Source: Methanosarcina vacuolata Z-761 (GTDB lineage: Archaea; Halobacteriota; Methanosarcinia; Methanosarcinales; Methanosarcinaceae). Taken from it: DNA of 64,000 bases. The DNA is taken from assembly GCF_000969905.1 (NCBI RefSeq), contig NZ_CP009520.1, positions 3,348,001-3,412,000 on the forward strand, in the 5' to 3' direction. The position numbers and the translations under genes were made by a program. Positions within the stretch are counted from its first letter, which is position 1. Every line of letters starts with the position of its first letter. The notes under the pieces are model-generated. The model did not search any database, was not told the DNA's origin, and was given only the letters and a program-made list of their open reading frames with translations. This document shows, one piece after another, positions 89 to 12,602 of the stretch.

Positions 89-157
89 TTACTGTGGACA
101 ATTATTCAAAATTTTCTTTCGGATGTATAATTTGGGTAAAATCAAGATGTGGTAGAG

Positions 158-1309
158 ATGAGTACTGGAATAAAAAATCTTGTCCGTACACTGGACAGTG
201 TGGACTTCTTAAAAATGGATCGACGCACTTTCATGAAAGCATTAGGTGCAATGGGTGCAGCTACATTCCTTGGCACATATAAATCTGAGATTGTAAGTGC
301 GCTTGAACTCGCAGAGACCAAGCTTCTTTGGATCCACGGTTCCGAATGTACCGGCTGTTCCGAATCGGTCTTAAATGCAGGTAATCCTGACCTTGTACAA
401 GCACTAGAAAAGCTTAATGTCAATCTTGCTTACCATGAGACTCTTTGTGCACAGCAGGGAATTTGGAATGATGGTAAGCTTGTAAACACCGCTGAGCTTA
501 ACTCCGAAATTCTCCAGGAAGAAATTTATAAAGAAGGCAACTACATTCTGGTCGTTGAAGGCGGAATTCCAAACGGTCCGGATGGTTCAGGCCGCTACCT
601 GGTTATTGGAAACAAGCCTTTCAAGCAGACCCTTGGAGAGGCTGCAAAGAATGCTGCAGCTGTCGTTGCAGTTGGAGCCTGTGCCTGTTGGGGAGGAATT
701 ACCAATGCAGAAAGCGATGTTGCCAAGGACACTGACTATAGAGGAGTAGCATTTTCAAAAACCGAGGCATCAAAAGGTATGCTTAAAGAACTTGGCATTG
801 ATAAGCCCGTAATCAATATTCCTGGTTGTCCGGCTCACCCTGATTGGGTACTCCTTACCCTGGGCGCAGTTATTCTTGGTAAGATTAAGATCCCAGATGA
901 CCTTTCTGCCGTTCTGGACGAGTATAACAGGCCAAAAGTCTTCTTCCCTCCAGACCATGTTGTGCATGACAACTGCCCCCGCCGTGGATACTACGACCGC
1001 GGAGAGCTTGATGAAGAGATTGGTGGGCCAGGGTGCCTGTGGAAACTTGGATGCAAAGCTCCTTACGCCCATGCAGACTGTGGAATCCGCAGGTGGAACG
1101 GTTCAGTAAGCATGTGTACTCAGGCAGGCGGCCCCTGTATTGCCTGTGTTGAACCAGGCTTCCCAGACTCCTCAAGACCCCTGTACGTTGAACGTGAAGA
1201 TGTAGGAGTTGCCGGAACAAACATTGATACAGTAGCCAAAGTTGCAGTTGGAGCAGCTGCAGTTGCAGCAGGCGTACATGCTGTTAGGAGAATGGGAAAA
1301 GGAGAGTGA
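158..1309 (+). CDS. vhtG: Methanophenazine-reducing [NiFe] hydrogenase small subunit
   Basis: Electron-transfer subunit of the membrane-bound F420-nonreducing hydrogenase that oxidises H2 on the outer membrane face and feeds methanophenazine through cytochrome b. The N-terminus carries a twin-arginine motif (DRRTFMK) before a hydrophobic stretch, so the folded subunit and its partner are exported by Tat. The proximal-cluster motif is complete (HGSECTGC), followed by GACACWGG and the GCPAHP cysteine. The medial/distal cluster residues follow in [20 protein letters not shown] and CIACVEPGFPD. A hydrophobic C-terminal segment rich in Ala and Val anchors it in the membrane. An in-frame GTG at 149 is an alternative start; ATG 158 is preferred because the next residues match the family. 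It is first gene of vhtGACD, 7 nt ahead of vhtA. Confidence 0.95.
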   Translation: MSTGIKNLVRTLDSVDFLKMDRRTFMKALGAMGAATFLGTYKSEIVSALELAETKLLWIHGSECTGCSESVLNAGNPDLVQALEKLNVNLAYHETLCAQQGIWNDGKLVNTAELNSEILQEEIYKEGNYILVVEGGIPNGPDGSGRYLVIGNKPFKQTLGEAAKNAAAVVAVGACACWGGITNAESDVAKDTDYRGVAFSKTEASKGMLKELGIDKPVINIPGCPAHPDWVLLTLGAVILGKIKIPDDLSAVLDEYNRPKVFFPPDHVVHDNCPRRGYYDRGELDEEIGGPGCLWKLGCKAPYAHADCGIRRWNGSVSMCTQAGGPCIACVEPGFPDSSRPLYVEREDVGVAGTNIDTVAKVAVGAAAVAAGVHAVRRMGKGE

Positions 1310-1316
1310 GTGAAAA

Positions 1317-3092
1317 ATGGTAAACGTTACAGTTGATCCCTTAACTAGAATTGAAGGTCACCAGCGCATATCCACTGAAGTAGGTGCTGACGGTGTTATT
1401 ACCGATGCCCAGTCATCTTCTCTTATATTCAGGGGTTTTGAACGCATTCTGCAGAACCAGGATCCAAGAGATGCAGCTTTTCTTACTCAGAGAATTTGTG
1501 GTGTCTGTCCTCTTGCTCATGGATTAGCATCCACAAATGCTCTTGACGACCTTTATGGCGTAGCTGAGAGCGTTCCAAAAGATGCTCTTATGATGAGAAA
1601 CATTTTCCAGGGCCTGAATATGGTTGCAAGCCATGCAACTCATATATATGTTCTCTTTGGTCCTGATCTTGCAAACCCGGCATACAAAAAGGTCCTTACA
1701 ACACTTGGAGACACCGGAAACGCAGTCTGGAATGAAATGGTTGGAAGGTTTGCCCCAATCAGCTACAAGATGGATGGCGCGGCTGTACCTGTAGGGAGTT
1801 CCTATCTTGCAGCAATTCCTGAGAAGAAACGCCTTCAAGAGGCTATTGCACTCATTGCCGGTAGAATGCCCGGTCCTTCATCCCTTTATCCAGGTGGATA
1901 TACCTACCCGGCTACTGTCGGAGATATAACCAAACTTTCCACTTACTATCTGCAGGTCATGGACTTCGTATCCAAACATACTCTGAAAGTTGATTTCAAT
2001 ACCTGGATCAAAAATACCTATCAGGCAAGCTCTCCTCAAAAAGCAGTAAGCTTTGTTACTGAACACCTGACTGACCTTTATAATAAAACATCGACTTCAA
2101 ATGACTTCTCCAAAGATGCAGGTTGGGGAGATGTGGAATTCTATGCAGCTTTTGGTTCAGAACTTGTAGGAGAAAAGATTCTCGGTCTTCCAGCAAGCCT
2201 TAAACATGATACAATCGGTGGGTACAAGGACCCAGCAAAGATCTGCTTCGTTTCATATGGCGGATACTACAAGTACAAAGACGGATACGACCCGAAGAGC
2301 CCAGCAGGAGACCGTATTTTCACCTCAGGTGTGGTAACAGGAAAGCTCGAATACCAGAAATTTGATCCGGAAAAGATTACTGAGAGTACTGCTCACTCCT
2401 TCTACCAGAACAGTTCCAATGACCTCGCACCAGCAAAAGGTGAAACCGTTCCATATACTGATCCAAATAAAATCGTTTACACAGGCGGTTCAAACAGCCA
2501 GTACAGCTGGGACAAGGCTCCGAGATATGACGGAATGGCAGGTGAAGTCGGGCCTCTTGCACGCATGCTAAATATAAAAGAGCCTCTAGTAACAGGTCTG
2601 GCTCAGGCTTTCGCTGAGAATGGTTACTCTGCAGCTAACGTTTACACCAGGATGCTGGCTCGTATGCAGGAAACTGCAATTCTCGCATATGAACTTCTCA
2701 ACTGGGTAACAGTTGATTACAACCCAAACGGCAAGATTTCCGTGCCTATAGACCTTAATACAGCTAAAAACAATTCGGGAATGGGCCTGTGGGAAGCACC
2801 TCGTGGAGCTCTTGGTCACTGGATCTCTGCTGGCAGCGATGGAAAAGTTACCAACTATCAGTGTATAGTTCCGGGTAGCTGGTTGATGTCCCCAAGAGAC
2901 AGCAAAGGAATTCCTGGCCCACTCGAACAGTCTCTCATTGGTTCAAAAATCAATACAGTTGGAGATGTCGATTATACCAATCCAGTTGGCATTTTCCATA
3001 TGGGAAGGTCCTACGATCCTTGCATTTCATGTGCAGTCCACACCATTGACCTGACTGGGAAAAACGCTCCAAATACACTAAGAATCCTCTAA
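1317..3092 (+). CDS. vhtA: Methanophenazine-reducing [NiFe] hydrogenase large subunit
   Basis: Catalytic subunit holding the Ni-Fe(CN)2CO centre. The N-terminal ligand motif RICGVC lies near residue 60 and the C-terminal motif DPCISCAVH near residue 577. The 14 residues after that His form the peptide expected to be removed by the maturation protease once nickel is inserted. RIEGH near residue 12 supplies the conserved Glu. There is no signal peptide of its own: it rides with the Tat-tagged small subunit. A Shine-Dalgarno-like GGAGAGTGAG precedes the ATG, and the start almost abuts vhtG. At 591 residues it is full length for group 1 methanogen enzymes. Confidence 0.96.
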
Positions 3093-3117
3093 GTATAGTA
3101 CAGGGAGATGACCCACA

Positions 3118-3882
3118 ATGAAATCTAAAGGCGACAAGCCGATGATTGTTGAGCGCTATACAGTAACTGACAGGATAGCTCATACTGTCCACGCTGTTGC
3201 AATGTTAGTGCTCATCATTACCGGGTTAAAGATCTATATGGGATGGGAATTTATGAGTTTCCATACCGCCCGCGGTCTTCACATGATAGCGGTCCCATTC
3301 CTGCTTGCAGTGAACTGGATCCTTATTCCTTACAACATCTTCTCTGAAGGTCATGGGTTTATGGGAAAGATCTCGCACTTTACGGACCATTATATTTTCG
3401 GCCCTAAGGATGCAGCTCGCTTTGGCGGTATAATTGGTAACTTCTTCAGGAAAGGCAGATATCCGGCATTCAGTATATATGATGAAACTACTGGCCACTA
3501 CAAGACCAAACTTCATCCCTTAATGAAGATCCTGATCGTGCTTGAAGGTACAGCTATCTTCTTAATCGCGGTTTCAGGTGTTGTGCTTTACAAGCTCGAC
3601 TGGTCACTTTTCGGCCTCCCAATAGCCTCATGGATACTGACTATAACAGGCTTTATTTCGCCGTTATTCAACCTGTCTCCTCTGGAATTCCTCAGGGTAC
3701 TTCACCTGCTGATGACCTACTGGTTTGTTTTTGAACTTGTAGTTCACGTGGGTATTCTGGAATTCGATCCTCATGTCTGGAAGTACTATAAAGCTATCTT
3801 CCTGACAGGAAAAGAGGATCTGAGAGATACTCATTATTCTGAGGTTCTCCCAGCTTATTACCCTACAAAGGAAAAGCCGTGA
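3118..3882 (+). CDS. vhtC: Hydrogenase-linked cytochrome b subunit
   Basis: Membrane b-type cytochrome that takes electrons from the VhtG Fe-S chain and reduces methanophenazine. The protein (254 residues) has several hydrophobic helices (around residues 22-44, 58-80, 135-160, 165-185 and 195-220) with His residues in helix contexts such as AHTVHAV, GLHMIA, LHLL and VVHVG, suitable as haem ligands. A GGAGATGA ribosome site precedes the ATG. It lies 25 nt after vhtA in the same operon. The loop between helices 2 and 3 is basic and probably cytoplasmic. Family assignment is firm from gene order and sequence; exact haem ligands are inferred. Confidence 0.93.
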
Positions 3883-3911
3883 AAATATCATAAAGAAAAA
3901 TATCAAATTTA

Positions 3912-3951
3912 AGGTAGTACAGGCATTTTTGAAAAGCCTGTATACCTTTTT
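3912..3951 (+). terminator. Terminator-like hairpin between vhtC and vhtD
   Basis: AGGTAGTACAGGC is followed by an A/T-rich loop and then GCCTGTATACCT plus a T-run. The 7-bp stem TACAGGC/GCCTGTA is extended by AGGTA/TACCT. The structure sits between the cytochrome and protease genes and could attenuate transcription into vhtD or shield the vhtGAC 3' end from decay. Confidence 0.6.
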
Positions 3952-3973
3952 AACTGCTTTTTTGAGTGAAAAT

Positions 3974-4459
3974 ATGTCTATACTAAATGCTCCTATACGC
4001 ATCCTTGGCTGCGGAAGCCCGTTAATGGGAAACGATGGTGTTGGCCTCAAAGTCATTGAGGTTCTTCAAGAATCAGAACTTAAAGACCTCAAGGATATCG
4101 ATATCATGGATGCAGGGGTCTGCGGGCTTGACCTTCTAAATCTTCTCGATGACGCCAGGAAAGTCATCATAGTTGATGCAATTCTGGCTAACAGCCCTCC
4201 AGGTTCAGTACACCATATAGAAGGGAAGGAATTACTTGAAGGCGTAGAGTTTCACCCCCTGGTTTCAGTACATGACCTGACAATTACAGATGTATTGAAA
4301 ATAGGAGAACAGGTCCAAGAACTTCCAGAAATTGTGGTCATCGGGATTGAAATCGGATCAATTGTCACGGAAGCTACGCTGGAAATCAGTCCAGATGTCC
4401 TTAAAGGTGTGGATAAAGCCATAAAGCTCATCAAGGAAGAGGTCTTTTCTTCACTTTAA
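3974..4459 (+). CDS. vhtD: Hydrogenase maturation endopeptidase
   Basis: HycI/HyaD-type protease that removes the C-terminal peptide of the hydrogenase large subunit after nickel insertion. It carries the family N-terminal GCGSPLMGNDGVG (usually GNxLxxDDG), then DAGVCGLDLL and the SVHDLT histidine segment. These supply the acidic and His residues that bind the nickel-loaded precursor. Reading could begin upstream at 3929, but ATG 3974 has a GAGTGA ribosome site and the expected N-terminus, giving 161 residues. The second hydrogenase operon in this window has no protease gene, so this enzyme may serve both large subunits. Confidence 0.9.
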   Translation: MSILNAPIRILGCGSPLMGNDGVGLKVIEVLQESELKDLKDIDIMDAGVCGLDLLNLLDDARKVIIVDAILANSPPGSVHHIEGKELLEGVEFHPLVSVHDLTITDVLKIGEQVQELPEIVVIGIEIGSIVTEATLEISPDVLKGVDKAIKLIKEEVFSSL

Positions 4460-6520: not shown

Positions 6521-6784
6521 ATTCTATCCCCCATATTTGCCGCACAACTTTTCCCTGAAATATGCAGCGTTATCACTAAACGTTACTAGCCTTAAAATTT
6601 CAATAAATAAAGTAGTGATATTAAAATATATAAGTTTTTAGAAAAATTATATTTATTAAATGACTTAAATTTAATTTAAACGATCTTCTGCTATTGCAAA
6701 GTAAAGGAGTTACCTGTAACGCGGGTTATCGAAGATTTGTTAGTCTTTTATAGATATGATAGTCTTTAATATATTGGACTCTAT

Positions 6785-6802
6785 TTTTTATATATATTTA
6801 GA
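6785..6802 (+). promoter_or_regulatory. Putative TATA element of the second hydrogenase operon
   Basis: A TTTTTATATATATTTAGA tract ends about 17 nt before ATG 6819, and no Shine-Dalgarno sequence precedes that ATG. Initiation about 25 nt downstream of this element would give a leaderless or nearly leaderless transcript. A second AT block near 6765-6778 (TTTAATATATTGG) is the alternative TATA. Confidence 0.4.
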
Positions 6803-6818
6803 TATAATTATTTGTAAC

Positions 6819-8066
6819 ATGGGGGGAAGTGGAACGGATAATGACGACTTACTTGAAAAGTTTAAAAATCTCGATTTCATGAAAATGGATCGGCGGACAT
6901 TTATAAAAGCTGTGGGGGTATTAGGGGCTTCACTGTTTTTGCAAACGTATAAAAACGATATAGCAAAAGCTCTTGAGTTTTCTGAAACTAAAGTTGTATG
7001 GCTTCACGGAGTAATGGATAGTGGCTGTACCATATCAATGCTGGACGGAGGATCTCCTGATATCATCGAATTCCTTCAGGAGTACAATCTCAAACTTCTC
7101 TATCATGAAGTTTTAATGATGCAGCAGGGGATTTTCGTAGATGGGAAGCTCGCAAATACCAGTGATCTTAATTCAGAGATTGTACTGGATGAGATCCTGG
7201 GAAGGGAAAAAGATTATGTTCTGGTCTCCGAAGGAGCAATTTCGAACGGACCTCAAGGTTCCGGGAAATATCTCATGCTGGGAGGAAGGACCTATAAAGA
7301 GATTTACGCGAAAGCTGCTAAAAACGCTTTAGCAATTGTTGCAATTGGGAATTGTGCGACTAACGGTGGGGTGAACTCTGCTAAGAGTGATATAGTCGAA
7401 CTTATGGACCCACGTGGGGTTGCTTTTACTATGGAAGATGCTTCAAAGGGGATTTTAGATCTTCTTGGCATCGAAAAGCCTGTAATTAATCTTACTGGTT
7501 GCCCTACTCATCCAGACTGGGTTTTTTTGACAATAGGTGCAGTTGTTTTGGGAAAGATAAAGATACCTGATGATTTGCCTAATGTCCTGGACCACTGGAA
7601 ACGTCCAAAGGTTTTCTTCCCGCCTGACCACGTTATTCATGATAATTGTTCTCGTCGCGGGTACTATGACCGTGGAGAGTTTGAGCTTACAGTAGGTGGG
7701 CCGAAGTGCCTATGGAAACTGGGGTGCAAGGGACCCTATACCCATGCAGACTGTGCTACTCGCAACTGGAACGGCCATCTCAATTACTGTCCTCAGGCAG
7801 GATCTCCCTGTATTGGCTGCGTCCAGCCGGGCTTCCCTGATAGCACCAGGCCTTTTTTTGTGGAAATTGAGAAGACAGGAATTGTAGGTACGAATATCAC
7901 TACTATAGCGGGCGTGGCAATCGGAGGCGCGCTACTTGCTGCAGGGGCTCATGCTGTAAGGAGAACTGCCATGAAAAGACCTGAGGACGAGGAAGGCTTT
8001 GCCGAAGAAAGCACTCCAGAAGAAACCGGAGAGAAACCCATAGAGGAAGCCGGAGGTGAAAAATAA
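6819..8066 (+). CDS. vhxG: Second [NiFe] hydrogenase small subunit with altered proximal-cluster motif
   Basis: Paralogue of VhtG with the same architecture: Tat motif [50 protein letters not shown] and a hydrophobic C-terminal helix, plus an acidic tail of about 30 residues absent from VhtG. At the first cluster-binding site the VhtG sequence HGSECTGC reads HGVMDSGC, so the first proximal-cluster cysteine is Asp (codon 7017-7019, residue 67) and the preceding Glu is Met. All other cluster cysteines remain. A frame extension back to 6756 encodes promoter-like AT sequence and is rejected. The symbol vhx is used because such a second, enigmatic G-A-C operon is known in Methanosarcina; vhoG is the alternative name. 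Confidence 0.9.
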
Positions 8067-9856
8067 TGGTACAGGTCACTGTTGATCCTGTTTCGAGAAT
8101 TGAAGGGCACTACAGGATCAATACCGAAGTCAATGGAGAAGGCGTAATTACTGATGCACAGAGTAACGGTTTGCAGTTAAGGGGTTTTGAACGTCTCCTG
8201 CAGCGCCAGGACCCCAGGGATGCAGCACTTCTGTCCCAGAGGATCTGCGGGGTCTGTCCGGTTAGCCACGGCATAGCTGCAGCAAATGCCCTCGATGAAC
8301 TTTTTGGAGTCGCAGGTGAGGTTCCCAAAAACGGTCTTTTAATGCGAAACATCCAGCAGGCTCTGAATTACATAGCCAGCCATGCAGCACACGTCTACGT
8401 GCTCTGGGCCCCTGACCTTGCAAACTCAGCTTACCGTGACATCCTGGCAAAATACGGTGATGTTGGAAATTCAGTCTGGAAAGAACTTCAGGGGCGTTTT
8501 GCACCTTTGATTTATCAGATTGACGGTGCCAGTTATCCGGCAGGCTCGTCCTATCTGGGCGCTATAGTGGAATTTCGCCGTTTGCACGAAGCCATTTCTT
8601 TAATAGCTAGCAAGATGCCACATCCGGTTCTTCAGCATGTTGGAGGTGTAGTTTATTCTCCGACTGTTGCTGATATCGGGCAAATTCTAAGCTATGTCAC
8701 GAAAACGATGGAGTTTGTTAAAGCATTTACTCTTGGGGTCTCTCCCGATACCTGGATTGAAAATACTTACAGAGCTTCTTCTCCTCAAAAGGCTGCTAAT
8801 TTCGTTCTTAATCACCTGCAAGAACTTCTGAATAAATCCCTTGACAGTAAGGACTTCTCACACTCGGCTGGCTGGGGAGACGTCCCTCTCTTTGCGGCTT
8901 TTGGCTCGGAGCTTATAGGGGAAAAACTTCTCGGCCTGCCTATCAGTATGAAAATGGACCTTGCAGGGACTTACAAAGATCCCGATAAGATTGGTTTTCT
9001 TTCCTACGGAGTTTTCTTTAAGCCCGAGAAAGGAGATGGATATGACCCTACAAGTCCTGCTGATAGCAGAGTTATTCCCTCCGGCTATATGGATGGATAT
9101 TTCAAGCTTGAAAAATTTGACTACAGGAAGATCTCAGAAAGTATTAGCCACTCCTTTTACATTGACGATGTAAACGATCGTCCTCCCTGGAATGGGGTTA
9201 CGGTTCCGGAAGGGACCCCCGAAAATATTGATTATACAAAAGGATCAAAGAGCCGTTACTCGTGGGCAAAAGCCCCTCATTATGACGGCATTCCGTGTGA
9301 AGTCGGCCCTCTTGCCCGTATGATGGTTATGGGAGAACCTCTTGTTACGGCATTGGTAAAAACTTTTCAGGATAACGGCTACTATCCTGTCAACAACTAT
9401 ACCCGCATGATTGCAAGGATGCAGGAAATTCTTGTAGTGGTCCCGGAACTTATAAAATGGCTCACGCAGGACCTTCAGGCAGGCGGAAAGGTTGCTGTGC
9501 ATACCGATCTTTCCATGGCAAAGAGTTCCACAGGAATGGGTTTATGGGAAGCTCCGCGAGGGGCACTGGGGCACTGGATTGCTACAGATTCGGATTCTAT
9601 GGTAACTCTTTACCAGGCTGTGGTTCCGAGCACCTGGAACCTTGCTCCAAGGAATTCGCAGGGAATCCCAAGCCCTGTTGAACAGGCCCTAATAGGCACC
9701 AAAATCTCGGCTGCCGAAAATGCACTTGGAGTGGATTATTCAAATCCTCTCGGAATCCTGCATACAGCCCGGTCTTACGATCCCTGCCTGGCATGTGCAG
9801 TTCATACAATTGATAAAACCGGAAAGCACCCGGACTATATAATCAAGGTACTTTGA
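8066..9856 (+). CDS. vhxA: Second [NiFe] hydrogenase large subunit
   Basis: Paralogue of VhtA (596 residues). The nickel-binding motifs RICGVC and DPCLACAVH are both intact, as is RIEGH, so a NiFe centre can be expected. A 14-residue peptide follows the last His and should be removed by a maturation protease, presumably VhtD, since this operon has none. The start codon overlaps the vhxG stop by one base (TAATG), indicating translational coupling. The retained active-site ligands argue against simple decay of the operon despite the unusual small subunit. Confidence 0.93.
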
Positions 9857-9870
9857 AGGAGGTTGAAAGT

Positions 9871-10662
9871 ATGGTACGATCTGCTCAAAGACCTGCTTCC
9901 AGAAGTGTAATTGTTGAACGTTATACGTGGCTTGAGCGGGTTACTCATCTGGTTCATCTTGTTACCCTGTTTATCCTGCTTATTACGGGATTCAAAATCT
10001 ACTTTGGTTGGGGTTTCATGGCTTTTCAAACAGCCCGAACCTGGCATATGATTGCTGTGCCTTTTTTCCTGGTTGCAAATTGGATTCTGGTCCCATACAA
10101 CCTTTTTTCCTGCAAAGAAGAAAGATGCAGTGTCAGAGACAGGACCGTGCATTTTAAGGACTCTTACATTTTCGGAAAAGCTGATGCAGAACGGTTCATT
10201 GACATAATAAAGAATTTTTTTGGAAAAGGCAGGTATCCGGCATTTAGTATCTATGATGAAACTACTGGTCACTACGAGACTAAACTCCATCCTGTGATGA
10301 AAATACTGATTGTCCTTGAGAGTATAGCAATTGTTATTGTAGCAATTACAGGAGTAGTGCTTTACAACCTTGACTGGTCTCCTTTCGGAATTCCCATTGC
10401 GGCATGGATACTTTCCGTAACCTGGTATTTTGCGTCCTTTTTCAATATCAATGCTTTGGGTTTACTCCGATTATTACATCTGCTTGCAGCTTACTGGTTT
10501 GTCTTTGAACTTGTGGTCCATGTAGGAATTATTGAATTTGATCCATACGTATGGAAATATCATAAGGCAATATTCTGGTCCGGAAAAGAAGATCTCTCAG
10601 ATAGGCAGTTTGTCAAAATAATTGATGAGGACGAGCAAAAAAGAGTAACAGGTGAACACTGA
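9871..10662 (+). CDS. vhxC: Cytochrome b subunit of the second hydrogenase
   Basis: Paralogue of VhtC (263 residues from ATG 9871) with the same helices and His positions ([32 protein letters not shown]). A strong ribosome site, AAGGAGGTTG, precedes ATG 9871; a TTG at 9853 that overlaps the vhxA stop is less likely. Relative to VhtC it carries a longer loop with two extra Cys residues (SCKEERCS) after the second helix. It is the last structural gene of the operon. Confidence 0.92.
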
Positions 10663-11060: not shown

Positions 11061-11591
11061 ATGACAATGCAAAGGGAAATCCAGGTAATCTGCGGGAATG
11101 TAAATATCCCTAATCTTTCCGGCTTTCTAAAATCAATAAATTCGATAGCTTCCGAAAATGATGTCATTATCCAGGGTTTGAACGCAGACCTGATCGCAGG
11201 GGAAAGACACCTTCATTTTGCAGTGGGAAAAGCTCTTCGGGCAATTGCTGCAGGCAGGAACATAGCAAACGATCCCGGTATCGAGATTATGCGGTATGCG
11301 TCCGGAGAGAGGCAGATTGAAAGGAGTTTTTCGATTGGGCTATGTAAAGGGGAAAACAATGCCGTATTCGTGCTGCTTGGAAAAATGGACAATCTGGTGC
11401 TGGCTCTCTCTGCATTAAAAGAACTCATTACTGAAAAGCCCTGTTCCGAGCTGCTTGCATATTCCGATTACAAAAAGCAGGGAATCCTTTCTGTGTTCGG
11501 GATCACGGATGCTGAAATTGAAGCTTCAGGGAAGGAGCACATTCCCGAACTTGTGATTGAGAGGGTAGCGCTGGCAGATTTTGCAAAGTAA
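11061..11591 (+). CDS. cgi121: KEOPS complex subunit Cgi121
   Basis: Cgi121 is the tRNA-binding subunit of KEOPS, which with Kae1, Bud32 and Pcc1 makes the t6A modification at A37 of ANN-decoding tRNAs. The 176-residue protein shows the family pattern: an N-terminal strand (IQVICGNVN), a helix-strand pair with VIIQGLNADLIAGERHLHFAVGKALRA, a mid region (IMRYASGERQIERSFSIGL) and a C-terminal helix ending in VIERVALADF. It is a single-gene unit followed by a pyrimidine-rich tract. A t6A-modifying methylthiotransferase lies about 3 kb downstream and acts on the product of this pathway. Confidence 0.85.
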   Translation: MTMQREIQVICGNVNIPNLSGFLKSINSIASENDVIIQGLNADLIAGERHLHFAVGKALRAIAAGRNIANDPGIEIMRYASGERQIERSFSIGLCKGENNAVFVLLGKMDNLVLALSALKELITEKPCSELLAYSDYKKQGILSVFGITDAEIEASGKEHIPELVIERVALADFAK

Positions 11592-11609
11592 AAAAGGGCA
11601 ATCTGAACC

Positions 11610-11850
11610 TGCGTCTATAATTTCTCTTCAGCTTCTCTTTTTCATCTATCTTTTTCTTTCATCTTCTGTTTCTCTTCAATCTCTCTTTTTCTTCAATCTT
11701 CTGTTTCTCTTCAATCGCTCTTTCTCTTCAATCTTCTGTTTCTCTTCAATCTCTCTTTCTCTTCAATCTCTCTTTTTCTTCAATCTCTCTTTTTCTTCAA
11801 TCTTCTGTTTTTCTTCAATCTCTCGTTCTCTTCAATCTTCTGTTTCTTGT
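11610..11850. repeat. CTTCAATCT-type pyrimidine microsatellite
   Basis: About 240 nt of degenerate repeats of TTCTCTTCAATCTCT, TTCTTCAATCTTCTG and close variants lie between convergent cgi121 and the amidotransferase gene. The strong strand asymmetry (nearly all pyrimidine on plus) could act as a U-rich terminator for cgi121. Confidence 0.8.
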
Positions 11851-11870
11851 TTCTACGTAATTTTTACCAC

Positions 11871-12602
11871 TTAGTTTTCTTGCCCACATTTTTCTTCAAA
11901 CCAGTTCATGAGAGAAAAGGCCAGGTTCCTGGAACTATCAAAAAAGCTTTCCTGCCCAAGTATTTCCTTTTCAGACTGGATATATTTTCCTGATACAAGA
12001 TCGTGCCCTGAATCCCTGATCAGATTTCTTACCCACTGCCTGTTGGCTTCAGGGTGAAACTGTAGCCCGAGAACATTTCCATTGTAAATAAATCCCTGAT
12101 TCGGGCAGGCCTCACTTTCAAAAAGCTTCACTGCTCCGGCTGGAATTTCAAAGGTGTCTCCATGCCACATAAAACCGGTAAACTCAGGAAACATGCAGGA
12201 CGGAAGCTTTGAATCCTTTAGCTCGCTCGGGCTTTGTTCGATATTTTCTTCTATAGACCGTACCGTATGCCAGCCGATTTCCTTATACGGATTTTTCGTA
12301 ACTTTTCCTCCAAGCACTTCGGAAATCATCTGAGCTCCAAAACAGCTCCCAAGCACGGGTTTGCCGTCTTCTATTACTGTTTTCACAAATTCTTTTTCAG
12401 GTTTTAACCAGGAATATTCCTCTTCCTGATAAATGCTCATGGTGCCGCCCATTATAAGGAGCAAATCGAATTCTTCAGGGGCAGGAAAAAAAGAGTTTTC
12501 GTAAAGCAGGGTTTTCGTAAGTTTATATTCTTTATCATCTATCCAGGTCCCTATACTTCCCAGGGTATCGTTTTTCAGGTGTTGTAAACAGTGAATTCTC
12601 AT
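11871..12602 (-). CDS. Class I glutamine amidotransferase-like protein
   Basis: Stand-alone GATase1 domain of 243 residues. The nucleophile elbow GSCFGAQ supplies the catalytic Cys and QFHPEA the His-Glu pair; an LLIMGG oxyanion-strand motif is also present. Such free-standing domains related to the GMP-synthase amidotransferase usually hydrolyse a gamma-glutamyl bond of an unknown substrate. The C-terminal 60 residues are helical and lineage specific. The gene stands alone and converges on cgi121. The substrate cannot be told from sequence. Confidence 0.85.
   Translation of the reverse strand: MRIHCLQHLKNDTLGSIGTWIDDKEYKLTKTLLYENSFFPAPEEFDLLLIMGGTMSIYQEEEYSWLKPEKEFVKTVIEDGKPVLGSCFGAQMISEVLGGKVTKNPYKEIGWHTVRSIEENIEQSPSELKDSKLPSCMFPEFTGFMWHGDTFEIPAGAVKLFESEACPNQGFIYNGNVLGLQFHPEANRQWVRNLIRDSGHDLVSGKYIQSEKEILGQESFFDSSRNLAFSLMNWFEEKCGQEN

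Follow-up and report, generated by a model that had tools for sequence, protein, structure and literature searches.

In [NiFe] hydrogenases, electrons leaving the NiFe site first reach the proximal iron–sulfur cluster, which draws much attention in studies of redox bias and oxygen tolerance. The class nearest to the locus described here is Vho/Vht, the group 1 [NiFe] hydrogenase with which Methanosarcina reduces methanophenazine and in which four Cys hold this cluster. Asp in place of one proximal Cys is known from R. eutropha HofKG (group 1h, PDB 5aa5), which reads GLGCDGD, and from FrhG of Methanothermobacter marburgensis (PDB 3zfs, 4ci0, 4omf), a group 3, cytoplasmic enzyme that reads GCTGD; in the latter, Asp60 was identified by cryo-EM as a proximal-cluster ligand of a working enzyme with a 3Cys:1Asp [4Fe-4S] site (PMC3930138, PMC3591093). 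As to the paralogous vhx genes, M. barkeri vhx was described as incapable of yielding active hydrogenase (PMC6030560), and another report cites an absence of detectable hydrogenase activity for an M. barkeri strain with only fre and vhx (PMC13224831). The M. barkeri vhx promoter-RBS region gave zero reporter expression, with no discernible RBS (PMC11409679); vhx lacks a protease of its own, and a response to acetate stress was seen in its transcripts (PMC6913021). Here, a vhx operon was analysed in a window of 64,000 nucleotides, the whole stretch of DNA under study, from Methanosarcina vacuolata Z-761 (contig NZ_CP009520.1, positions 3,348,001 to 3,412,000); the operon features given below lie on its forward strand.

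The vhx operon and its proximal-cluster motif

The window carries an ordinary hydrogenase operon, vhtGACD (149..4459; VhtG 149-1306), which includes the maturation protease gene vhtD, and downstream of it the paralogous operon vhxGAC (6834-10662), in which no maturation protease gene was found. The small-subunit gene vhxG (6834..8066, in an ORF at 6756..8066) was assigned an ACG start and encodes a Tat signal, MDRRTFIK, seen by inspection; vhxA (8066..9856) encodes the large subunit with both nickel ligand motifs, RICGVC (RxCGxC, 8240-8257) and DPCLAC (DPCxxC, 9779-9796); and vhxC (9853..10662) encodes a membrane cytochrome b subunit, whose similarity to Ni_hydr_CYTB (E 3.9e-5) falls just under the cut-off. 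VhxG is 59-60% identical to VhtG and matched the Pfam families NiFe_hyd_SSU_C and Oxidored_q6, but scored 165.3 bits against NCBIfam TIGR00391 hydA, below the cut-off of 179.5 bits, compared with 194.3 for VhtG. In a tree of Methanosarcinaceae small subunits it was nested with VhtG/VhoG (node 100), and its Tat signal and cytochrome b partner likewise agree with the Vho/Vht type. Vhx and Vht/Vho thus have in common the G-A-C operon, Tat small subunit, cytochrome b, nickel ligands, and distal and four-Cys medial clusters, whereas Vhx stands apart by M-D-S for E-C-T, the missing D protease gene, the ACG start and the silent promoter. At 11621-11848, a tandem repeat array (period 17/35/104) with about 12 copies of ATCTCTCTTTTTCTTCA lies under a low-complexity ORF (11581-11874).

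The first-pass annotation had pointed to Asp in place of a proximal-cluster Cys at 7017-7019, with Met for the preceding Glu and with the remaining cluster ligands and both nickel motifs intact; the window letters bear this out for VhxG and VhxA, and add an exchange of Thr for Ser. VhxG encodes HGVMDSGC at 7005-7028 (CAC GGA GTA ATG GAT AGT GGC TGT), where VhtG has HGSECTGC preceded by W-I. Within the VMDSGC motif (7011..7028), Met (7014-7016), Asp (GAT, 7017-7019) and Ser (7020-7022) stand for the E, C and T of VhtG at positions 87-89, residues being counted on the ORF from 6756, and Asp88 occupies the position of the first proximal-cluster Cys. The other proximal ligands, Cys91 (7026-7028), Cys200 (third ligand, 7353..7355) and Cys249 (fourth ligand, 7500..7502), are present, as are all the distal (H295, C298, C318, C324) and medial (C333, C345, C352, C355) ligands at 7638..7820, which were assigned to the two clusters by homology to group 1 enzymes. 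In an alignment of 70 small subunits, obtained from 40 regions retrieved in a search of 112 Methanosarcinaceae genomes, Cys249 and the distal and medial Cys columns were invariant, and Cys200 was so wherever sequence was present. The medial cluster has four Cys, the same as in VhtG, and, set beside NiFeSe enzymes, this points to a [4Fe-4S] cluster. AlphaFold2 run on VhxG with 17 sequences gave a mean pLDDT of 44.8, and hence no geometry was used.

Distribution, origin and maintenance of the Asp

On the 70-sequence tree, the Vhx sequences grouped in a single clade (100), which a long stem sets apart from its sister clade, where G-E-C-T-G-C is retained; the stem branch, of length 0.28, precedes the origin of the Asp. 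V-M-D-S-G-C was found in 18 Vhx genomes, the window genome among them, whereas Cys is kept in 5 of the 23 as V-E-C-T-G-C or A-G-C-T-G-C, one of these five genomes being presumably M. acetivorans C2A. Most Vhx thus lack the four-Cys proximal cluster of the Vho/Vht-type group 1 class, which is no diagnostic trait of that class, as group 1h departs from it too. M-D-S for E-C-T occurred in 18/18 sequences of one Methanosarcina clade and in 0/52 relatives, and a scan across G, A and C returned positions 87-89 as the sole strictly class-specific residues. Nucleotide trees built on all sites returned the MDS clade as monophyletic with SH-like support of 1.0, whether the motif codons were included or left out; on the protein tree its support was low (46), and a tree restricted to codon positions 1+2 did not recover it. 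Cys-bearing Vhx of M. acetivorans-like genomes branch outside the MDS clade, which indicates that Cys is ancestral and Asp derived. The change from Cys to Asp, with both neighbours, probably happened once, in the ancestor of M. barkeri-like Methanosarcina. By point changes it takes five substitutions in six bases; a compensated 2-base shift from GTA GAA TGT ACT to GTA ATG GAT ACT ('GA' past 'ATG') was considered as the origin of the block but is not proven, and one sister gene (G095) carries exactly the starting sequence of this proposed shift. In the VhtG of two Methanosarcina MAGs (L095 in G094, L097 in G091), Ser occupies the first proximal Cys position (AESTGC/SESTGC, codons AGC/TCC), and neither of these incomplete genomes gave a vhxG match. 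The first proximal Cys position appears to be labile in the family.

The median NG86 dN/dS over the Asp genomes (n=18, median dS near 1) was 0.096 for VhxG, 0.108 for VhxA and 0.143 for VhxC, and 0.127, 0.150 and 0.145 for VhtG, VhtA and VhtC of the same clade, so that VhxG was no higher than Vht. Four-fold sites underwent a mean of 4.0 changes on the Vhx tree, and Met, Asp and Ser underwent none inside the Asp clade; the Ser codon is AGY in 11 and TCN in 7 genomes, and the Asp codon is GAT or GAC. The paralogue had been proposed in the first-pass annotation to be no relic, a view that an Asp unique to this strain or a dN/dS near 1 across orthologues would have contradicted. Neither was seen: the Asp recurs in 18 genomes and dN/dS is about 0.10-0.14 for the three genes, which together indicate that the variant is maintained without decay, and relic status was ruled out on dN/dS. 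It is hardly credible that the vhx operon is a decaying set of pseudogenes whose Cys disappeared through drift: the ACG start, the silent promoter and the single frame disruptions in MAG L080 and in vhxC of L066 could be read in this way, but nearly all vhx frames are intact at a dN/dS of about 0.1, Asp and Ser were kept through codon turnover, and the tree gives no hint of recent gene conversion behind the dN/dS signal. Purifying selection on vhx shows a function, not specifically H2 oxidation. A functional enzyme of altered redox potential, also raised in the first-pass annotation, is plausible.

We consider it probable that vhxGAC encodes a selectively maintained, low-abundance, membrane-bound Vho/Vht-type H2-uptake [NiFe] hydrogenase with a 3Cys:1Asp proximal cluster. 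Counting against this reading are the published lack of activity (PMC6030560, PMC13224831), the silent promoter (PMC11409679), the missing protease gene and the hydA score below the cut-off. Asp88 would most likely ligate this cluster as a [4Fe-4S] site with one oxygen ligand; the other proximal Cys are unchanged, though their decay would be expected upon cluster loss, which counts for a retained cluster. Going by Asp-ligated ferredoxins in general, an oxygen-ligated proximal cluster would probably have a more positive potential; as this cluster is where electrons from the NiFe site arrive first, the shift would bias the enzyme further towards H2 oxidation with methanophenazine and away from the reverse reaction. 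The literature holds no clear consensus on the effect of Asp ligation on cluster potential (PMC9503767). It is improbable that the site instead holds a three-Cys [3Fe-4S] cluster, or that its fourth iron is labile, with Asp88 lying nearby but bound loosely or not at all. Asp-ligated [4Fe-4S] sites are often labile, for example in Pyrococcus ferredoxin, and the two VhtG with Ser imply that the position tolerates change, but strict retention in 18 genomes and independent recurrence would not be expected of a residue in a non-bonding role.

Rnf, taken to mark H2-independent metabolism, exceeded the family cut-off in eight genomes of the genus, including 1 of the 18 with Asp-type Vhx (G081) and 3 of the 5 with Cys-type Vhx; the two Cys-type genomes with no Rnf match over the cut-off are incomplete MAGs. 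This distribution fits a link to H2-cycling metabolism but is confounded by shared descent.

Start codon and expression of vhxG

At the ancestral start-codon position (6834..6836), the 23 vhxG genes read ACG in 18 cases, ATG in 4 and GTG in 1, and the sister-clade genes read ATG in eight of nine, the ninth (G005) not being alignable there. A Shine-Dalgarno-like GGGGGGA precedes the ACG (6821..6827), for which several sister-clade genes have GGAGGTG. Between the ACG and the Tat motif lies a leader (6837..6884), ten codons of which showed 2/2/19 changes at codon positions 1/2/3. Because nearly all of these changes fall at third positions, the leader is taken to be translated and initiation must lie upstream of it, where most of the vhxG genes have no ATG, GTG or TTG. 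A downstream ATG (FMKM) was rejected as the start, since the leader ahead of it changes almost only at third positions and that ATG itself is not conserved. It is possible that the ACG is a conserved non-canonical archaeal start codon.

In the window, an in-frame ATG at 6819 sits ahead of the Shine-Dalgarno sequence, so that a reporter fused at 6819 would lose it; our guess is that the published vhx fusion (PMC11409679) lost it in that way. Upstream of vhxG, at about 6735-6830, short conserved elements (GATAGTCTTTTAATATA and an A/T-rich TATATA stretch) are common to many vhxG genes, including those of the M. acetivorans type, in contrast to the description of the vhx promoter as not conserved.

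The ACG start could explain poor vhx expression without catalytic failure. Vhx would probably be made in small amounts or only under special conditions, owing to the published weak promoter and to the ACG start indicated by the comparative evidence. Expression also bears on another reading, in which Vhx is maintained without H2 turnover, serving as a sensor, an assembly partner or a structural paralogue, with the Asp as a sign that electron transfer is no longer fast. This reading draws on the lack of M. barkeri hydrogenase activity attributable to vhx (PMC6030560, PMC13224831), on the silent promoter (PMC11409679) and on the long stem branch (0.28) that predates the Asp. We regard it as unlikely, as expression can account for the silence, the cytochrome b subunit is co-maintained, and the nickel ligands, the PRGALGHW motif and the medial and distal ligands are all conserved, which a paralogue without electron transfer would not need.

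First-position Asp in other hydrogenases

The swap in Vhx had been likened in the first-pass annotation to that of group 1h, and the analogy holds in that both exchange one proximal Cys for Asp, but not in the position of the exchange. Alignment of G-C-D-G-D of 5aa5 with G-C-T-G-C of NiFeSe enzymes puts the Asp at the second Cys, giving C-x-x-D as in M. marburgensis FrhG, whereas GVMDSGC of Vhx follows D-x-x-C (D-S-G-C), with the Asp at the first. VhxG is also not close kin to HofK/HhyS: 5aa5 ranked below NiFeSe, Hyd-1 and other enzymes, and its alignment begins at residue 150. A group 1h origin of Vhx was ruled out by ligand position. That the shared type of exchange reflects a group 1h-like adaptation to oxygen is very improbable, as the ligand position and the clade both differ and a strictly anaerobic host has no obvious use for it. 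FrhG of the window genome was likewise excluded as sharing the swap, since it reads GCTGC with four Cys. Three further small subunits (L202, L222 and L225) read DCAGD, with Asp at the second Cys as in group 1h and FrhG, and are scattered among DCAGC relatives. Judging from the alignments compared, the first-position swap is absent from the solved structures among them.

In a survey of 393 genomes of the phylum, 110 small subunits including the two window proteins were aligned, with PDB and plasmid comparators as the bacterial coverage, and 97 read C-x-x-C, 3 C-x-x-D and 10 D-x-x-C. Eight of the D-x-x-C sequences belong to one Archaeoglobaceae-type family and read L-Q-G-Q-S-D-[ST]-A-C; we take three of their genomes to be Ferroglobus placidus, Geoglobus acetivorans and G. 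ahangari. These eight formed a clade (0.987) that is sister to same-family paralogues with S-C-[ST]-A-C and well separated from Vhx, and their dN/dS was about 0.055, with dS near saturation. The membrane-bound Ferroglobus/Geoglobus hydrogenase (L229, L230) resembles Vhx in its first-Cys Asp, other cluster Cys, Tat small subunit, cytochrome b, large subunit and Cys-type paralogue, the last lying elsewhere in the genome in G. ahangari; it is unlike Vhx in its separate clade, Cys-bearing sisters, Ser instead of Met before the Asp, ordinary start codons and the gene order small subunit-cytochrome b-large subunit, seen in the two operons examined. H2 and Fe(III) support growth of one of the Geoglobus species. 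The separate clade with Cys-bearing sisters indicates that the first-position Asp arose there by convergence with Vhx, and such independent recurrence speaks for its being a workable solution. Another small subunit, L191 (L232 7154-8077, G301), reads MQGATDNGC, has no obvious Tat signal and adjoins genes for a large subunit, a protease and hyp proteins; it likely represents a third D-x-x-C lineage. As far as these sequences tell, the first-ligand Asp had at least two origins, probably three. The wider notion that D-x-x-C marks a recurrent, independently evolved [NiFe] class tuned for one-way H2 uptake, with the Methanosarcina enzyme held scarce by a conserved ACG start, is possible but doubtful.

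This exchange of Cys for Asp, found in nature at the ligand of the pair opposite to that in group 1h and FrhG, arose more than once and has sister enzymes with Cys within the same genome or in closely related ones; it is a ready-made comparison for seeing how direction and rate depend on a single ligand. The status of Vhx is also reopened, in that the literature holds it unable to form an active hydrogenase whereas the sequence evidence shows selection acting on it, and the silence of vhx could be traced to expression by way of the ACG start. On comparative grounds, Vhx is a real, conserved and convergently evolved ligand-swap variant of a known enzyme class, found in an enzyme generally dismissed as inactive.
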